Source: Providencia zhijiangensis (GTDB lineage Bacteria > Pseudomonadota > Gammaproteobacteria > Enterobacterales > Enterobacteriaceae). Taken from it: a stretch of DNA of 64,000 bases. The stretch lies in assembly GCF_030315915.2 (NCBI RefSeq), contig NZ_CP135990.1, positions 2,356,001 to 2,420,000 of the forward strand, in the 5' to 3' direction. The notes beneath the pieces are model-generated. The model did not search any database, was not told where the DNA came from, and worked only from the letters and a program-made list of their open reading frames with translations. A program made the translations under genes and the position numbers. Every line of letters begins with the position of its first letter. Position 1 is the stretch's first letter. This document shows positions 2,720 through 9,992 of the stretch, in pieces.

Positions 2720-2745
2720 GCCCCATGAAAATGGGGCTTTTTTTG
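2720..2745 (+). terminator. Rho-independent terminator of tctCBA
   Basis: A 7-bp perfect stem (GCCCCAT/ATGGGGC) with a GAAA loop is followed by seven T, 30 bases after the tctA stop. Confidence 0.9.
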
Positions 2746-2767
2746 TTTACTAGCTCACTGATTTTCT

Positions 2768-2940
2768 AATTTCGGATAGCCCTGCTCGCGTAGCCATTCG
2801 CGCCCTATATCAATGGTTGGAGTTTTGTACAATAAAGACAAACAATGCATCGTATTATCCCTCCGTCATTTTGAGTGCTTTTTATGTTGCGCATTTATAC
2901 GTAGCCCGGAAATAAAATACTTGTCGATAACACTAATAAT
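2768..2940 (-). pseudogene. Decayed second copy of the small membrane-protein gene at 9669-9992
   Basis: Bases 2771-2850 match the 3' end of the gene at 9669-9992 almost base for base (the TTTCGGATAGCCCTGCTC start and the TACAATAAAGACAAACAA stretch are shared). Bases about 2888-2940 match that gene's 5' flank (around 10029-10080). The coding middle is missing and one extra T near 2833 breaks the reading frame. This is a remnant of a duplicated gene, not a functional one. The two copies lie on either side of the AAA+/ZorAB-like operon. The rest of the gap 2940-3272 is very AT-rich and holds no gene that I can support. Confidence 0.75.
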
Positions 2941-3211
2941 TTTTTATGACCGAAGAACTATTTACGTTAAAGAATTCTAAAAATAGAACGATATAGTTAT
3001 AACTTTAAGATGCATATTTTGTTACATATTAAAAATTTATTTTATTTCACTAATCGTTAGTCGCTAATTTAGAATTACCGACCTTTTTGGGATATGAACA
3101 TATTTTCATTCATTTTGAACAATAATCACGCAAAAACATACGAAAGAGGTTGATTATTGATTGTATTAATTAATACTCCAATTATCATGTCGTTTTTATT
3201 TTTAAATGAAA

Positions 3212-3240
3212 AGGTGTACAAATTGAAACCAATTACACCT
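3212..3240. promoter_or_regulatory. Inverted repeat upstream of the AAA+/ZorAB-like operon
   Basis: AGGTGTA at 3212-3218 pairs with TACACCT at 3234-3240, and an inner ATTG/CAAT adds to the hairpin. It lies 33-61 bases before the first start codon in AT-rich DNA. It could be an operator or a leader hairpin. There is no T-run, so it is not a terminator. Confidence 0.45.
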
Positions 3241-3272
3241 ACTTATTATCTAAATTGAGAATTAAAAAATAA

Positions 3273-4232
3273 ATGGCTGAATCAACCTCGACCGAAGAAA
3301 CAAAAAAAATTAATTTAGAGTTATTTGAAAAAGATAATGATGCCAATCAAAATTTAAATACATATCTATTAAGAAATCCGCGATTTACTCTCGATAATGA
3401 TGTGATCCTATCAGCAGTAACAAAAATCTATATTGATGAATCTCTTGCCAGACTACGCTTTCATCATAAAATCTATCAAGAATGGGGATTCTCCCGTGTT
3501 GACCCTATGGGTATGACCGCTATTTTAAATTTTTACGGACCTCCTGGTACTGGAAAAACATTATGTGCTGAAGCCTTTGCTGGTAAATTAGGTTTACCTT
3601 TTATTTCACTCGGTATTGCAGAATTAGAAAGTAAGTTCATGGGTGAAACTGCAAAAAATATTCAAGCCGCATTTACTCAAGCGACTGCAACAGGTGCCGT
3701 ACTTTTCTTTGATGAGGCTGATACTTTATTAGGCAAGCGTTTGTCATCGGTAACTCAAGGTGTCGACAATGAAGTAAATGCCATGCGTTCAACATTATTA
3801 ATTGAGTTAGAGCGATTTGAAGGAATTGTCATTTTCGCCACTAATTTTGCTCGTAATTATGATGAAGCATTTCGTAGCCGAATTGGTTATCACGTTGAAT
3901 TTACTTTACCCGACCAAGATGCCTTATATCGATTGTGGGATCGTTTTTTATTGCCTGAAATTCCAATTCTAGGAAATCGTGACGATATATTAAAAACACT
4001 CTGTGAAATATCCGTTGGTTTGTCAGGTAGAGAAATTCGAACATGTATGAGGTTGGCATTACCAAAGGCTCTCATCAATGCAGAACAGCAAGGTATCTCA
4101 CCACAGTTAAGTATTCAACATTTACAAGACGCTATTACTCAAGTTTTTAGTACACATAAATCAATTGGTAACCGAAATCTCAGTACCGCTGATGATGCAC
4201 AAACCGCTAAAAACTTGTTAGGTATTAAATAA
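3273..4232 (+). CDS. AAA+ ATPase of a ZorAB-like operon
   Basis: A 319-residue single-domain AAA+ ATPase of the FtsH/VPS4/spastin type. Visible motifs are Walker A GPPGTGKT (89-96), Walker B VLFFDEAD (143-150), a sensor-1 Asn in FATN (about 191), and a second-region arginine pair RSR (201-203). The C-terminal part (230-300) looks like the helical lid, with SGREIR. The first 80 residues are not a known protease or substrate domain, so it is probably a remodelling ATPase acting on a partner. It is first in a tight four-gene operon, 15 bases before the next gene. The ribosome site is weak. Its base composition is clearly more AT-rich than the core genes. It is not ZorC, ZorD (SNF2 helicase) or ZorE (HNH nuclease). 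Confidence 0.85.
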   Translation: MAESTSTEETKKINLELFEKDNDANQNLNTYLLRNPRFTLDNDVILSAVTKIYIDESLARLRFHHKIYQEWGFSRVDPMGMTAILNFYGPPGTGKTLCAEAFAGKLGLPFISLGIAELESKFMGETAKNIQAAFTQATATGAVLFFDEADTLLGKRLSSVTQGVDNEVNAMRSTLLIELERFEGIVIFATNFARNYDEAFRSRIGYHVEFTLPDQDALYRLWDRFLLPEIPILGNRDDILKTLCEISVGLSGREIRTCMRLALPKALINAEQQGISPQLSIQHLQDAITQVFSTHKSIGNRNLSTADDAQTAKNLLGIK

Positions 4233-4247
4233 AATTGGAGCATAAAA

Positions 4248-5522
4248 ATGGGATGGTTGTCTAACATAATATCCAGCGGTGCAAGCTTGATATCTAGTGG
4301 TTTACATACGATAAAAAACGTTACTAAAACAGTTTATAACACAACTAAAGAAACGGTTACTAAAGCCGTTTCTTGGATGGCAGATAAAGCTGAAGTTTTT
4401 ATTGGTAGCGTCAAAGACGTTTGGAACAAAGTTAAACCGATTATTAATAATGTGGTACGCCCACTGATCCAAAGTGCTATTCAAGTCACCTCTTTTAGAT
4501 ATCCGTGGATAACAGCGGGTCTTACCGCGCTTGATAAAGCCCTAGAATATCTTGTTAAGTGGGATCAAACAGATTTAGCAAAACGTATTGCCCACGCGAT
4601 TGAGTGGACGATTCAGCGCGCTAAAGAACTTAAAAATGCTTATCTCACAGAAGAAGAATTAGAGAAAGCTCAGGAGCATGAAGCTGCTTTACGTGAAGCA
4701 AAATATAAAGTTCAAGGTGAAGCAAAAAAAGCTGTTGATGTTGCTACTTTAATCAACCATCACTTCCAATTATCCACTCGAATTAAAGACTTATTAGATA
4801 ATGTACAAATTGATGATTTTGAACATTATCTGCGCCTGCGTGCTTCACAGAAATTGCTGAAAAATATGGAGAGCAAGCTGGAAAATACTCAGAACATTGA
4901 TGAAATCAATGAAGACGATATTTTCATTATGGAAACAGCAAATGAACTACTTAAGCGGGAACCCAATCTTTCTGATGAAGCCATGATGCGTTTGGATAAC
5001 ATCATTATGATCCGCTTTAGTAAGAAACTGATTCCATTTGTGTTTGAAGAAATGATTATGGCATGGAGCTTTAACCTTAAAGATCTTGAGAAAGAATGGA
5101 AAAAGCTCAATACCGAATTTTCCGAACAACAAGTCATACAGCGCCGTTTAAATGTAGCATTAAAGCTAGATGACCTCACAGAAGAACAGAATCTTGAGCT
5201 GCAAGACCTAAACCGTCGCCTACCTCAACTTGAAGCAACTATGACCTTAAAACGTAAGCGTACTAATGAGATGCGCCACTACGTTTATGCGGCTGAAGGT
5301 TTTCTACAAATGTTAGAAAAAGATCCTGAAGAGTTTGTCGATCAAGAATATTTAATGGAAGACAGTAATGAGGTTGGCAAAATCATCATTGACTGTGCTC
5401 AATTTGGTAAAAAATGGGAAGAATTAACCGTTGACGAGCAAACATTGGTCATCGATTTCTCCAACATTTTCAAAAATGATAGCGAACTTCGCGAAAAACA
5501 ATTAATTGAGGTAGCCGCGTGA
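4248..5522 (+). CDS. Helical/coiled-coil protein of unknown function in the AAA+/ZorAB-like operon
   Basis: A 424-residue protein with no domain that I recognise. Residues 1-80 form repeated amphipathic stretches rich in Lys, Thr, Val and Ser (MGWLSNIISSGASLISSG at the N-terminus). These could lie on a membrane. Residues 115-220 and 285-350 are charged, Glu/Lys/Leu-rich and strongly helical, typical of coiled coils. There is no signal peptide, no clear transmembrane span and no enzyme motif. A TGGAG ribosome site precedes the ATG. The end overlaps the next gene by 4 bases (GTGA), so it is translationally coupled to the channel protein. Likely an adaptor between the ATPase and the membrane complex, but this is inference. 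Confidence 0.75.
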   Translation: MGWLSNIISSGASLISSGLHTIKNVTKTVYNTTKETVTKAVSWMADKAEVFIGSVKDVWNKVKPIINNVVRPLIQSAIQVTSFRYPWITAGLTALDKALEYLVKWDQTDLAKRIAHAIEWTIQRAKELKNAYLTEEELEKAQEHEAALREAKYKVQGEAKKAVDVATLINHHFQLSTRIKDLLDNVQIDDFEHYLRLRASQKLLKNMESKLENTQNIDEINEDDIFIMETANELLKREPNLSDEAMMRLDNIIMIRFSKKLIPFVFEEMIMAWSFNLKDLEKEWKKLNTEFSEQQVIQRRLNVALKLDDLTEEQNLELQDLNRRLPQLEATMTLKRKRTNEMRHYVYAAEGFLQMLEKDPEEFVDQEYLMEDSNEVGKIIIDCAQFGKKWEELTVDEQTLVIDFSNIFKNDSELREKQLIEVAA

Positions 5523-7351
5523 CCTTTCATGATTTTCTAAACTTCTTACTACCTGAATTTGATATTACCCAGATTATTTTTGGTGGTCTGATGTTAACGC
5601 TGGTGCTCGTTAGCATCGTCTTACTATATGTGCAAGCTAATGAAAAAACGTGGGATAAAAAATGGCAAACCCACATTGTGACTGATGAATCTGGTAATGT
5701 GGATTTGGAACAAAGCTCCATCAATGAAATAAGTCATTCAATCGCTAGTCCTGCCGAAAAAATGATTGATGTCATGCCAGGCATTCTGCTGATCATTGGT
5801 TTATTAGGAACCTTTTTAGGTCTCGGGATCGCACTAAATAAAGCGTCTGATATCCTAATTGATGCTAACTCAGCAGGTATGGACGATGCCATGGCTAACC
5901 TAATGGGTATGATGGAAGGTTTAGGCACAAAATTCAAAACCTCCACTTGGGGGATTATTGCGTTCCTTCTGCTCAAATCATGGTCTGCTTTCAAAGGCTA
6001 TGATGAAAAGCGGTTACACTGGTGCGTACAAAAAATCAGTCATTTATTACACGAATCAAAACGTAAAGCCTTTGAAGAAAAAGAGAAAGTTCAACAACTT
6101 TTTTTAGGTGCCTTAGAGAAGCTTGATAGTGGAATGATCCGTGAAGGCAATGCAAATCGTACATCATTGAGCAATATTAATGACACTATAGGGGCTTTGC
6201 ATAAGACCCTTGATGACCAAAATAAAAAGTTTCAAATTCAGCATGATAAAGCTACGGCTCAACTTGCTGAGATCATCACAAGTTCAAATAGTACAGTATC
6301 TGCCTTTGAGCAATTTACAACGCTATATTCACAACATACTGATAAGCAATTGAGCCAACTAAATCATGTCAGCCAAGCGCTAAGTAGTTATATATCAACC
6401 AGTAATGAAGTTAGTACAAAGCAGTTAGATGCACTCACTGACACCCGAAACTCACTGCAAGAGTTTATCGCATTAAATAGTGATAACTTGAACACGATTA
6501 AATCATCTGCACAAACAATGTCTGACTCTGCTCATGCAATGGGTGATTCTGCTCAATCGTTACGTGATGCTATTGATGAGTTCAAAATGGGTGTTGGTGA
6601 TGTTCTCGGAACCATTAAAGACGATTTAGGATCAACCATTGACGCAATGGGAAGTAGCTTTAGTGAGAACATGCAAAATATCTCATCCAGTATGACACAA
6701 GCAACTGGTGGTATTTCAGATGCCGTGACCACACTATCAGAAAATGTTGGTAACACCATGACCAGCGTTAATGAATCCATTAATGATTCAATGAGAAAAC
6801 AGAGCGCTGCTCAGCATGAGTTTATTTCTGTAAGTAGTTCATTAGGTACAGATGTCGGCGTAATGAAAACACTGATCGAGGATTTAAGTGAGCGTATTTT
6901 AAGTAGTTTAAGCGCTATCTCATCCAGCAATCGTCAAGTTGCTAGCCTCAATAGCAAATATAATGAAATTACTGAACAAAGTATTAACAGTGCAAATTCA
7001 ATACAAGAGTTAGTTGAGCAGTTAAAAACTATTCAGTTTAACAACCCACTACAGCCATCACTCGATGCTATAACCAAAGATATTAACCGCGTTATTGCGG
7101 GGATTGAAAAATTAAACATGGGAATGCCAGAAAAAGAAACAGCGACGAAAGTGATAAACACCTTAACAGAACATTTATCAAAAAATACTCTTGAACTACA
7201 AGATATTAAAAGTGTTCTACTATCACCAAAGCTAACATCTACTCCTGATAATTTGCAAAAGTTATTAGCTGATGCAAACTCATCTCTCAAGCAAATTAAT
7301 AAAAATTTAGATGGTATGAACCTCGTTAATTTGCAAAATGAGGCGAGTTAA
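5519..7351 (+). CDS. ZorA/MotA/ExbB-like proton-channel protein with a long helical tail
   Basis: 610 residues, with a GTG start overlapping the previous stop. Three membrane segments are visible (about 17-38, 86-106, 142-156). The second carries LLGTFLGLGIAL, the signature of MotA/TolQ/ExbB channels and close to that of ZorA. From about residue 170 to the end there is no membrane segment; the chain is rich in Ser, Asn, Gln and heptad-like leucines, a long intracellular coiled-coil tail. In Zorya, five ZorA and two ZorB form a proton-driven motor whose ZorA tail signals into the cytoplasm; this layout is the same. The stop overlaps the next ATG (TAATG), which supports co-assembly with the protein that follows. 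A flagellar MotA role is unlikely given the tail and the neighbours. Confidence 0.85.
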   Translation: MTFHDFLNFLLPEFDITQIIFGGLMLTLVLVSIVLLYVQANEKTWDKKWQTHIVTDESGNVDLEQSSINEISHSIASPAEKMIDVMPGILLIIGLLGTFLGLGIALNKASDILIDANSAGMDDAMANLMGMMEGLGTKFKTSTWGIIAFLLLKSWSAFKGYDEKRLHWCVQKISHLLHESKRKAFEEKEKVQQLFLGALEKLDSGMIREGNANRTSLSNINDTIGALHKTLDDQNKKFQIQHDKATAQLAEIITSSNSTVSAFEQFTTLYSQHTDKQLSQLNHVSQALSSYISTSNEVSTKQLDALTDTRNSLQEFIALNSDNLNTIKSSAQTMSDSAHAMGDSAQSLRDAIDEFKMGVGDVLGTIKDDLGSTIDAMGSSFSENMQNISSSMTQATGGISDAVTTLSENVGNTMTSVNESINDSMRKQSAAQHEFISVSSSLGTDVGVMKTLIEDLSERILSSLSAISSSNRQVASLNSKYNEITEQSINSANSIQELVEQLKTIQFNNPLQPSLDAITKDINRVIAGIEKLNMGMPEKETATKVINTLTEHLSKNTLELQDIKSVLLSPKLTSTPDNLQKLLADANSSLKQINKNLDGMNLVNLQNEAS

Positions 7352-8004
7352 TGAAAGACAAACCTAATGAGTGGGTTTCAATCTCTGATTTAATGTCGGG
7401 AGTCATGGCTGTCGTCATGTTGCTGCTAGTTATGTCAGTTTTGCAAAAAACTTGGTCAGACATTAAACATAAACAAGAGATGGAACAAGGGATCGGTGCA
7501 CAACGTGAAAAAGTGAGCAACATGTTAAATAATATCAAAACATCTTTAGATGGCACTGATAACGAAAACTTAGTTGCACTTGATATGAACTCACAAAAAA
7601 TCACCTTAAGAGATGGTGTATTTAACCGAGGAAGTGCGTGCGTCGCACCACAAGCAGAACCGGCCCTTCAAACAATTAAAAGTCAAGTTGAACTGTTTTT
7701 AGCTGAGTTCACATTAGGGCAGGTATTCATCGAAGGTTATACCGATAATATTCCAGTCACTCGCCCTGTCACCAACTTTGAGCATTTTTGTACTGTTTAT
7801 GATGACAATTTTACGTTATCAGCAGCGCGAGCTCGAGAGGCAAGAAAATCAGTTGTTGGTGAACTAAGTAATTCAGCCGCAAAACGCGTAATTGTTGCCG
7901 GATATGGAGATTCTCAACCGATCCAAGGGATTCCACCAGAGGATGCTCGACAACGCAGAATCGAAGTTCGCTTTGTATTACCAGATAGTACGAGTACAAA
8001 ATAA
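7351..8004 (+). CDS. ZorB/MotB-like protein with OmpA peptidoglycan-binding domain
   Basis: 217 residues. A single N-terminal membrane helix (about 12-31) starts with SISDLMSG, where Asp13 sits at the place of the proton-carrying Asp of MotB and ZorB. Residues 80-210 are an OmpA-like fold: EGYTDN (128-133), LSAARA (156-161), GYGDSQPI (184-191) and the closing QRRIEVRF (201-208). This part should bind peptidoglycan in the periplasm and anchor the channel formed with the upstream protein. A 14-residue insertion (about 138-152, with one Cys) lies between the first two motifs. Start and upstream stop share one base, so the pair is translationally coupled. Confidence 0.85.
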   Translation: MKDKPNEWVSISDLMSGVMAVVMLLLVMSVLQKTWSDIKHKQEMEQGIGAQREKVSNMLNNIKTSLDGTDNENLVALDMNSQKITLRDGVFNRGSACVAPQAEPALQTIKSQVELFLAEFTLGQVFIEGYTDNIPVTRPVTNFEHFCTVYDDNFTLSAARAREARKSVVGELSNSAAKRVIVAGYGDSQPIQGIPPEDARQRRIEVRFVLPDSTSTK

Positions 8005-8013
8005 TTCCATCAC

Positions 8014-8044
8014 TATAAAAAAGTGAGAGTCTTTGCTCTCACTT
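8014..8044 (-). terminator. Terminator for the YdcZ-type gene (reads leftward)
   Basis: AAGTGAGAG (8021-8029) and CTCTCACTT (8036-8044) form a 9-bp perfect stem. On the minus strand it is followed by a T-run (complement of A at 8016-8020). On the plus strand it could also weakly end the ZorAB-like operon. Confidence 0.75.
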
Positions 8045-8084
8045 CCCCGCTAATTGCGTTAGTCACAAATTAAGTGCAATACCA

Positions 8085-8555
8085 TTACTTTCGTGAAAAT
8101 TGAACACATAAAACCCCTAGGATCACTAAACCAATACCCACCACTTTCTCAATCGGAATGGGGTTTCGATTCATGCCGAACCAGCCAAATTGCTCAATAA
8201 GCGCAGAAATAATTAATTGCCCCGCAATCACTAATACAAAAAATGTCGTACTGCCAATTTTAGGGACTAAAATCAAAGCCGACGTGAGGTAGAGCATCCC
8301 TGCGATGCCACCAAACCAAATCCAAATTGGTTGGTTAAATAGTTCAGTACTAAAATGGGGTTTTGGTACTTTAAAAATAATTAAAAGTGGAATTAATACA
8401 ATTAAACTGATCACCAGCGATGTTGCGCTCGCCCATAATGGGTGACCTAGTTGTCTTGCAAGTATGGCATTACTTGCCGCTTGGATTGGTACAACCGCGC
8501 CTGCCAATAATGCAACAAAGGCTAGAATGAGCCCTGTGATTGAAAATGCTGACAT
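8085..8555 (-). CDS. YdcZ/DUF606-type DMT-superfamily membrane protein
   Basis: 156 residues with five hydrophobic segments covering nearly the whole chain (about 7-27, 41-60, 73-93, 98-118, 134-152). The N-terminal GAVVPIQAASNAILA motif is typical of the YdcZ (DUF606) family of small drug/metabolite transporters. Substrate unknown. It is divergent from the LysR gene starting 103 bases away, so that regulator probably controls it. Confidence 0.8.
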   Translation of the reverse strand: MSAFSITGLILAFVALLAGAVVPIQAASNAILARQLGHPLWASATSLVISLIVLIPLLIIFKVPKPHFSTELFNQPIWIWFGGIAGMLYLTSALILVPKIGSTTFFVLVIAGQLIISALIEQFGWFGMNRNPIPIEKVVGIGLVILGVLCVQFSRK

Positions 8556-8657
8556 CGAAACCTCTTCACTAATATTGACTTAAGTTGAATGATTGCCATA
8601 GTAAAGAGAGATAACAGCATTGGAAAATGAACAATTTTATAAGGCACTATTCGTAGG

Positions 8658-9584
8658 ATGAATAACTTAAGAAAATTAGATTTAAATCAGCTAGTGACGT
8701 TGTCAGTCTTGTTGCGAGAACGGCATGTAAGCCGAGCGGCGGAAGCTTTACATAAAAGCCAGCCCGCTGTCAGTCATGCATTAAATCAACTGAGAGACAT
8801 TTTTCAAGACCCCTTATTGGTTCGCCGTGAAGGCCAATATCAACTAACAAGCAAAGCTGAGTCTCTTTATCTCCCATTAAATGAAGCATTAAAGCAATTA
8901 GATGATTTGATTGCCCAAAAACAGTTTTCTCCGCTAAGTTGCCAAAGGCGCTTTAATATCGCAATGTCCGACTACGGCGCAACTTTAATTACGATAAAAT
9001 TAGTTTCTTATTTACGCGAATATGCACCCAATATTGTCCTCAATATCTGGCACTGTAGTCGGGAAGAAATGCAAAATAAATTGCATGAAGGTAGCTTAGA
9101 CTTAGCATTCGGTATATTTGATACTCTGGATTATTCGTTACGAAATCAAACTGTCTTGACGGACAAATTTGTCAGTCTGGCTGATCATCAGCTTGGTTCG
9201 CAAGGCAAAATGGATTTAGCTAACTGGCTATCCTATCCTCATATTTTAGTGAGTATGAAGCCTTTTGATGCGAATGAAATCGACCATCAACTGCAATTAA
9301 TGAACCAACAGCGCCGTGTAGCCGTGACTGTGCCTTACTGGCAAATTGCACCCCAATTATTAACGGGGACTGACCTGATCCTAACGGTGGCGAAAAAAGC
9401 GATACCTCAATCCATGTTAAGCAAATTTACGTTATTTGATCCTCCATTATCTCTTCCTGATTTAGATTTCCAAATGGTATGGCACCAACGCGGTGATACT
9501 GATAAAGCATTAGAGTGGCTTAGAGGCATTATCGCTGAACAATTAAAAGATGACCGAGAGTTTTATGGCGAAAACGAGGATTAA
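8658..9584 (+). CDS. LysR-family transcriptional regulator
   Basis: 308 residues, the normal LysR length. The N-terminal winged helix-turn-helix is clear: DLNQLVTLSVLLRERHVSRA, then SQPAVSHALNQLR and DPLLVRR (about residues 8-55). The rest (about 95-300) is the co-inducer-binding domain. LysR proteins commonly regulate a divergent neighbour; here that is the YdcZ-type gene, with a 102-base shared intergenic region. The effector cannot be predicted. Confidence 0.9.
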   Translation: MNNLRKLDLNQLVTLSVLLRERHVSRAAEALHKSQPAVSHALNQLRDIFQDPLLVRREGQYQLTSKAESLYLPLNEALKQLDDLIAQKQFSPLSCQRRFNIAMSDYGATLITIKLVSYLREYAPNIVLNIWHCSREEMQNKLHEGSLDLAFGIFDTLDYSLRNQTVLTDKFVSLADHQLGSQGKMDLANWLSYPHILVSMKPFDANEIDHQLQLMNQQRRVAVTVPYWQIAPQLLTGTDLILTVAKKAIPQSMLSKFTLFDPPLSLPDLDFQMVWHQRGDTDKALEWLRGIIAEQLKDDREFYGENED

Positions 9585-9624
9585 AAAGGGCAGCATTTCT
9601 GCTATCTATCAGAATTTATAAAAA

Positions 9625-9654
9625 AAGCGAAAGCCCTGGCTCTCACTTTTTTCT
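9625..9654. terminator. Bidirectional terminator between lysR and the small membrane-protein gene
   Basis: AAGCGAAAGCC (9625-9635) pairs with GGCTCTCACTT (9638-9648), 11 positions with two mismatches. It has A's before it and six T after it, so it can serve both converging genes. Confidence 0.7.
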
Positions 9655-9668
9655 TCACTTGATCTATC

Positions 9669-9992
9669 CTAGCTGTCTTGTTTCGGATAGCCCTGCTCAC
9701 GTAGCCATTCGCGACCTACATCAATGGTTGGCGTTTGTACAATAAAGACAAACAAGGCACCGATCATACCGCCTAACAGCGCTCCCCCCAGAAAACCACC
9801 GGAAAAGAAACCAAAGAAAAACAACATAAAGGCTAATACGGCGGAAAGTAAAACCGCGAGTCCGGTGAGCTTCCAATATTTCGCGCCCATGCGTTTTTTA
9901 CCTTCTTTCAGGCATTGACGAAACAAGCGCCCTTGCTCTTTTCTCTCTAATCCTGCTAATTCAGGAACACTCTTCGCCGTCCAATACGCCAT
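9669..9992 (-). CDS. Small membrane protein of unknown function
   Basis: 107 residues. A charged N-terminus (residues 1-40) is followed by two hydrophobic segments (about 42-61 and 66-86). The second is very glycine-rich, which suggests tight helix packing. The C-terminus (VGREWLREQGYP) is soluble. I cannot assign a family with confidence. A broken copy of its 3' end and 5' flank lies at about 2768-2940, so it was once duplicated around the AAA+/ZorAB-like operon. Confidence 0.7.
   Translation of the reverse strand: MAYWTAKSVPELAGLERKEQGRLFRQCLKEGKKRMGAKYWKLTGLAVLLSAVLAFMLFFFGFFSGGFLGGALLGGMIGALFVFIVQTPTIDVGREWLREQGYPKQDS

Follow-up and report, generated by a model that had tools for sequence, protein, structure and literature searches.

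An operon in Providencia zhijiangensis raises the question of what a motor pair resembling ZorA and ZorB does in the company of an AAA+ ATPase and a helical protein. The operon lies on the + strand between positions 3273 and 8004 of the window, the stretch of 64,000 nucleotides that was analysed (NCBI RefSeq assembly GCF_030315915.2, contig NZ_CP135990.1, positions 2,356,001 to 2,420,000 of the forward strand). An earlier note on this DNA had described an operon of four AT-rich genes, and the open reading frames were spaced exactly as it claimed, with a gap of 15 bp followed by overlaps of 4 bp and 1 bp. The cassette is 4.7 kb long, and the G+C content of its AT-rich segment is 37.7%, against 43.5% in the window. 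The four genes encode, in this order and all on the + strand, a classical AAA ATPase with a single ATPase cassette (P0001; 3273..4232, 319 residues; Pfam AAA, 8e-28), an all-helical protein (P0002; 4248..5522, 424 residues), a ZorA-like channel protein with three hydrophobic helices and a long helical tail (P0003; 5519..7351, 610 residues, GTG start), and a ZorB-like protein with one transmembrane helix and an OmpA-type peptidoglycan-binding domain (P0004; 7351..8004, 217 residues; Pfam OmpA, 9e-9). Judged from gene context, it is fairly likely that the four genes make up an anti-phage defence system of a new, ZorAB-based type.

A scan with the AAA+ alignment over 84,980 species genomes revealed 38 close AAA+ relatives (46-73% identity) and three weak, unrelated matches. 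Three of the 38 relatives stop at a contig edge, and all of the 35 with enough contig showed the same gene order (AAA+, helical, ZorA-like and ZorB-like), so that the association of the four genes is more than chance. The intergenic gaps were small throughout the relatives, and the 4-bp overlap between the helical and zorA genes was present in most. The hosts include Enterobacterales, Pseudomonas, Burkholderiales, Stenotrophomonas, Acinetobacter, Psychrobacter, Haemophilus, Cloacimonetes and Fibrella, and further copies were found on a Paraburkholderia replicon, an unverified contig of a phage collection and an IMG/VR contig. The helical partner in Fibrella (Bacteroidota) is divergent and scored too low for the profile search; nevertheless it occupies the expected position, begins with MGFWS as the other partners do, and matched the family by profile comparison (hhalign, 96.6%). 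In the family of the window's genome, a full-length match was detected in 6 of 392 genomes, the window genome included, each time as a single copy and with a patchy distribution; one of the six (G957) has, on a different contig, an additional ZorB of Zorya I. No match to the cassette was obtained in the E. coli genomes searched by DNA. Among 295 genomes of the class of Fibrella, the Fibrella copy alone scored 409 bits and all other AAA+ matches scored at most 170 bits; nine of the latter proteins were inspected, and none had a zorAB neighbour. The cassette is thus both conserved and horizontally spread.

Three side observations concern these copies. The next-nearest AAA+ proteins in genomes of the class of Fibrella (L159-L167; about 450 residues, at most 170 bits) have some neighbours that resemble proteins of contractile injection systems, and the AAA+ ATPase of the cassette may share ancestry with ATPases linked to such systems. 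The ZorA-like gene of Haemophilus (L031:12294-14363) lies in two frames, either as a decayed copy or through a sequencing error. One record (L006, MT835507.1) was considered as a phage-borne copy and rejected; its entry bears the label UNVERIFIED, JukAB is present on it, and it looks like an island of Pseudomonas (L036), so that it is probably a bacterial defence island.

The genes around the cassettes were compared with PADLOC families, with matches counted at E <= 1e-15. In three sets of 117, 110 and 100 flanking proteins, 127, 163 and 130 families were matched, respectively, whereas 15 matches were found in the 87 proteins encoded by 18 arbitrarily chosen 8-kb regions from those genomes; this corresponds to about 1.3 families per protein in the flanks versus 0.17 in the control regions, in a comparison whose control is small and whose overlapping models count one protein several times. 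The names matched in the flanks include type I restriction-modification, JukA/JukB, Druantia DruM, DarG, SoFic and HEC-06, together with type II and IIG restriction-modification and WYL. Recurrent neighbours were seeded from JukA, JukB, WYL, HsdM/R, a PLD-helicase, an ADP-ribosylglycohydrolase-like protein and an integrase, with the identities checked for JukA, JukB and four WYL proteins, and at least one such family was present in 25 of 39 loci. In one locus (L034), the AAA+ gene directly adjoins a WYL gene, and the start of JukA lies 21 bp past zorB (JukA/JukB at L034:7535-9150). In four Enterobacterales-type loci, a phage-type integrase lies 170-234 bp past zorB.

In summary, the same order in about 35 unrelated genomes, usually among anti-phage genes, probably marks a new Zorya-like type of defence. 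The claim that the four genes belong together held, as they occur side by side elsewhere with their order kept, in several phyla and beside known defence genes.

WYL-type regulators, or a relative, stand directly 5' of the AAA+ gene and co-directional with it in L019, L022, L025, L031, L034 and L045, and this position suggests a defence-type regulator. The WYL-like neighbour at L025:6915-7721 gave no PADLOC match, and the copy in the window has no WYL-type gene upstream of its AAA+ gene. JukA or JukB is also found near the cassette in L005, L006, L010, L014, L015 and L036. Juk is a separate system and no sequence relation between it and the cassette was found; the two may cooperate.

The last two genes had been assigned to the ZorA/ZorB plan, and this assignment was confirmed by PADLOC (ZorA1, 7e-15; ZorB1, 3e-21) as well as by a three-helix channel with a long tail in the former protein and a transmembrane Asp with an OmpA domain in the latter. 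The NCBIfam scores were far under the curated cut-offs (ZorA_1, 38 of 190 bits; ZorB1, 26 of 400 bits), and Pfam gave no credible match for the ZorA-like protein. The residues expected of a motor, with roles assigned from their families, as was also done for the AAA+ residues below, were kept without exception. Thr98 (GLLGTF; 5810..5812) and Thr141-Ser142 (KTSTWG; 5939..5944) of the ZorA-like protein, predicted by analogy with ZorA/MotA/ExbB to be polar residues of the ion path, were present in 34 of 34 sequences. Asp13 of the ZorB-like protein (7387..7389), which stands where the transmembrane helix starts and is predicted to carry the ion, was present in 36 of 36, and so were residues D132, N153, S157 and R160 of the OmpA domain. 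Across the relatives, the ZorA-like tail extends 338-698 residues past the last transmembrane motif. As a side observation, 35 of 36 relatives keep both C97 and C147 in the periplasmic domain of the ZorB-like protein; the two may form a disulphide characteristic of the clade.

The structure models were built from alignments in which rows from annotated records were left out. The AlphaFold model of the ZorA-like protein had a mean predicted local distance difference test score (pLDDT) of 66, with values of about 75-92 over most of residues 1-200. Its best match was the Zorya type I ZorA (8vvn; Foldseek probability 1.00; VIA Z 11.8, root-mean-square deviation of 4.1 A over 168 residues), followed by TolQ, type II ZorA and ExbB within about 1-1.5 Z of 8vvn; matches to 8vvi and 8qyd were also obtained. 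In the trees, the ZorB-like proteins formed a single clade (98/98) separate from ZorB1, ZorB2, ZorB3 and MotB, and the ZorA-like channel domains formed a single group (90/91, bootstrap not settled) from which TolQ/ExbB was split at 100/100; MotA and MotB entered as long branches of one row each. The pair thus has its own ZorA group and its own ZorB clade, indicating that it is of the ZorAB type and belongs to none of the three typed Zoryas. These trees also bear on the concern that the pair might group with a housekeeping family, since the ZorA-like proteins were split from TolQ/ExbB and the ZorB-like clade fell outside both Zorya I-III and the single, long-branched MotB. The cassette shares with MotAB, TolQR and ExbBD the stator fold and polar residues, as seen by fold and alignment; it differs from them in its long tail, its mobile context and, less surely for MotAB, its separate trees, and it has no flagellar, Tol or TonB partners.

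The known Zorya types combine a comparable motor with other partners. Like type I (ZorABCD), the cassette has a three-helix ZorA channel with a long cytoplasmic tail, a ZorB with a transmembrane Asp and a peptidoglycan-binding domain, and a location on islands; unlike type I, it contains neither ZorC nor ZorD, its AAA+ and helical genes come first in the operon, and its ZorB falls in a separate clade (98/98). The AAA+ and helical proteins gave no PADLOC match to ZorC or ZorD and showed no similarity to the genes of two type I loci. With type II (ZorABE) the cassette has the ZorAB motor plan in common, but the ZorE nuclease is missing (PADLOC matched none of the four proteins to ZorE) and its ZorA and ZorB each lie in a clade apart from those of type II. 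Type III (ZorA, ZorB, ZorF, ZorG) is likewise a four-gene ZorAB system with two non-nuclease partners; however, these are DUF3348 (ZorF) and DUF2894 (ZorG), whereas the cassette encodes an AAA+ ATPase and a helical protein of 424 residues, and neither a Pfam/PADLOC match to ZorF/ZorG nor similarity to the genes flanking type III zorAB was found. Altogether, no nuclease domain and no ZorC-G homologue was found in the cassette, in agreement with the earlier note, which had reported the known Zorya partners to be missing. The same note had called it a candidate undescribed system, and indeed no description of the four-gene set was found in Pfam, NCBIfam, PADLOC 2023, PHROGs or the open literature searched. 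The cassette is best classed as a probable ZorAB-based defence outside Zorya I, II and III and is not named in those sources.

The AAA+ ATPase contains a Walker A motif (GPPGTGKT, residues 89-96; 3537..3560) and a Walker B motif (FFDEAD, residues 145-150; 3705..3722). K95, T96, D147, E148 and the finger residue R203 were invariant in all 38 relatives, and the pore-loop-like F122-M123-G124 was nearly so. It had been taken for a spastin/FtsH-type enzyme; the AAA+ assignment stands, but the protein is a classical AAA nearest to CDC48/VCP/AFG2 domains and to IetA, not specifically to spastin or FtsH. IetA was the best PADLOC match (4e-31, 107 bits). Membership in the IetAS system was considered and rejected, as the NCBIfam IetA ('IteA') score was 99.4 of the 510 bits required and the next gene encodes the helical protein. 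The likeness is confined to an AAA+ ATPase of related sequence; the cassette has no IetS or other protease, and its AAA+ gene is tied to a ZorAB pair.

The helical protein gave no credible match in Pfam, NCBIfam or PADLOC, and its relatives in the cassettes are 32-60% identical. Its AlphaFold model is all-alpha (mean pLDDT 75.6) with a large, confidently predicted helical C-terminal body in which residues 280-350 exceed a pLDDT of 90. No match at E <= 0.001 was obtained by Foldseek against the PDB and viral models, and the best VIA-align Z of 8.3 is inside the chance range for helical models; this search without a match does not show a new fold. By profile comparison, the protein was unrelated to any gene of the examined Zorya I, II and III loci; a remote ZorC, ZorD, ZorF or ZorG was rejected, with probabilities under 1% among the matches listed and none at 20%. 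An ESCRT-III/Vps4-like reading, in which the AAA+ ATPase would act with an amphipathic-helix protein, was also considered and gained no supporting match: no ESCRT-III/PspA-type fold was among the matches listed, for a model that is weak at the N-terminus.

Of all features of the helical protein, the N-terminus is the most uniform; an amphipathic helix region is predicted there (residues 2-62; 4251..4433). In all 36 proteins, the divergent one of Bacteroidota included, residues 21-62 were basic and strongly amphipathic, with a high hydrophobic moment above that of shuffles (p <= 0.02 in each) and a net charge of +1 to +9 over the first 75 residues. Most of them start with MG[FWL] (MG[FWLI]-type). 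Amphipathic basic helices commonly bind membrane surfaces, and the protein is probably membrane-binding, judging by its sequence. It had been described as a coiled-coil protein, which is right as to its 424 residues of helical make-up, but it is better seen as helical with an amphipathic N-terminus than as a simple coiled coil.

According to the literature on Zorya, infection disturbs the envelope and thereby activates ZorAB, which signals through the ZorA tail to effectors (PMC11890865, PMC12409362). Since the motor residues are intact and the effector genes are replaced, the simplest reading is that the sensor was kept and the output swapped. The ZorB-like protein would sense or grip peptidoglycan disturbed as the phage penetrates, and ion flow past Asp13 and the ring of ZorA Thr98/Thr141-Ser142 would set the core of ZorA in motion together with the cytoplasmic tail. 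An AAA+ hexamer serving as signal receiver would then be activated by this tail and may load, unfold or release the helical protein in place of the activation of a nuclease (ZorD/ZorE). At the site of infection, the amphipathic helix of the latter would act on the inner membrane, and either genome entry would be blocked or the cell depolarised. The step from the AAA+ ATPase to the membrane is put forward as a tentative proposal. JukB, a frequent neighbour of the cassette, reportedly forms pores at the early infection vesicle (PMC13282480), and an output directed at the membrane would not be out of place in such company. The scheme as a whole, in which a peptidoglycan-gripping, ion-driven stator and an AAA+ unfoldase arm a helical protein that inserts into or coats the membrane, giving a nuclease-free output, is possible and somewhat doubtful.

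In the Zorya types known so far, a MotAB-like motor is linked to effectors that attack DNA; type III instead links it to two proteins whose action is unknown. If the reading is true, the ZorAB motor would be a general, swappable sensor of infection, and the cassette would offer a clean system for how torque or ion flow passes along the ZorA tail to a cytoplasmic partner. It is compact, occurs in several phyla and is directly testable with laboratory phages.

A defence role and a ZorAB-type motor are well supported, the defence function being read from context. Several points weigh against the reading as set out. The PADLOC enrichment was measured against the small control and with the multiple counting described above. 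The copy in the window stands between housekeeping genes, outside any defence island. The amphipathic helix is a prediction in a part of the model, residues 1-49, where pLDDT is below 50, and without a fold match the activity of the helical protein is not indicated by structure.

Three alternatives have to be weighed against a membrane-directed output. The AAA+ ATPase and the helical protein may act by unfolding or sequestration on phage proteins or DNA-bound complexes, with the ZorAB-like pair as sensor. A classical AAA with a conserved pore loop would suit this role, its closest defence relative, IetA, is the ATPase of IetAS, and the C-terminal body is the confidently predicted part of the helical protein; however, the amphipathic N-terminus speaks for membranes and no DNA-binding domain was found, and we regard this alternative as unlikely. 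A regulated proton or sodium leak is less probable still. Here the ZorAB-like pair would be a toxic effector causing abortive depolarisation, and the AAA+/helical pair would gate the channel until infection, as in the early ZorAB proposal reported in PMC8565338 and in line with regulator genes co-transcribed ahead of channel genes, yet in known Zorya the ZorAB pair is not itself a lethal leak but powers nuclease effectors, according to work covered in PMC12409362 and PMC11890865. Finally, an envelope maintenance or stress device doing Tol/Exb-like cell-wall work and merely travelling on islands would agree with the OmpA domain, the stator homology and the housekeeping surroundings of some copies, that of the window included, but is very improbable in view of the patchy, single-copy and horizontally inserted cassette, its strong defence-gene neighbourhood and the position of the ZorA-like protein apart from Tol/Exb in the tree.

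The cassette was confirmed to be an insert at a foreign location. The inserted segment, which comprises the cassette and a 5' AT-rich leader, spans positions 2738..8069. In two congeners the site is empty, with window position 2737 followed by about 38 bp of other sequence and then by the equivalent of 8051 or 8070. The helical protein was not found in any of 23 congeners, one of the same species included. These results bear out the horizontal gain at a foreign location proposed in the earlier note, and the decayed duplicate that it had placed beside the operon is real. The left copy (2770..2849), the decayed 3' end of a 107-residue gene, matches at 93% over 80 bp the right copy (9681..9759), which lies inside an intact 107-residue gene (9669-9992, - strand). 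This direct repeat brackets the cassette together with a DMT-type and a LysR gene. In a genome of the same species (G420/L092), window position 2849 is joined to 9681, so that exactly 2850-9680, the cassette and its two neighbours, is missing; recombination between the direct repeats would explain this loss. A search of the 5' leader against Rfam gave no match, and no RNA element was found there.

Two further neighbours were observed. A recurrent pair of genes, one for a PLD-like protein and the other for a large helicase of the SNF2 type (PADLOC PDC-M27C), is located near the cassette in L006, L021, L029 and L036, and also in L023 and L024. The Fibrella cassette is flanked on either side by a phage-lysozyme-like protein whose tail is long and repetitive (L044:8439-9605 and L044:14928-16127).

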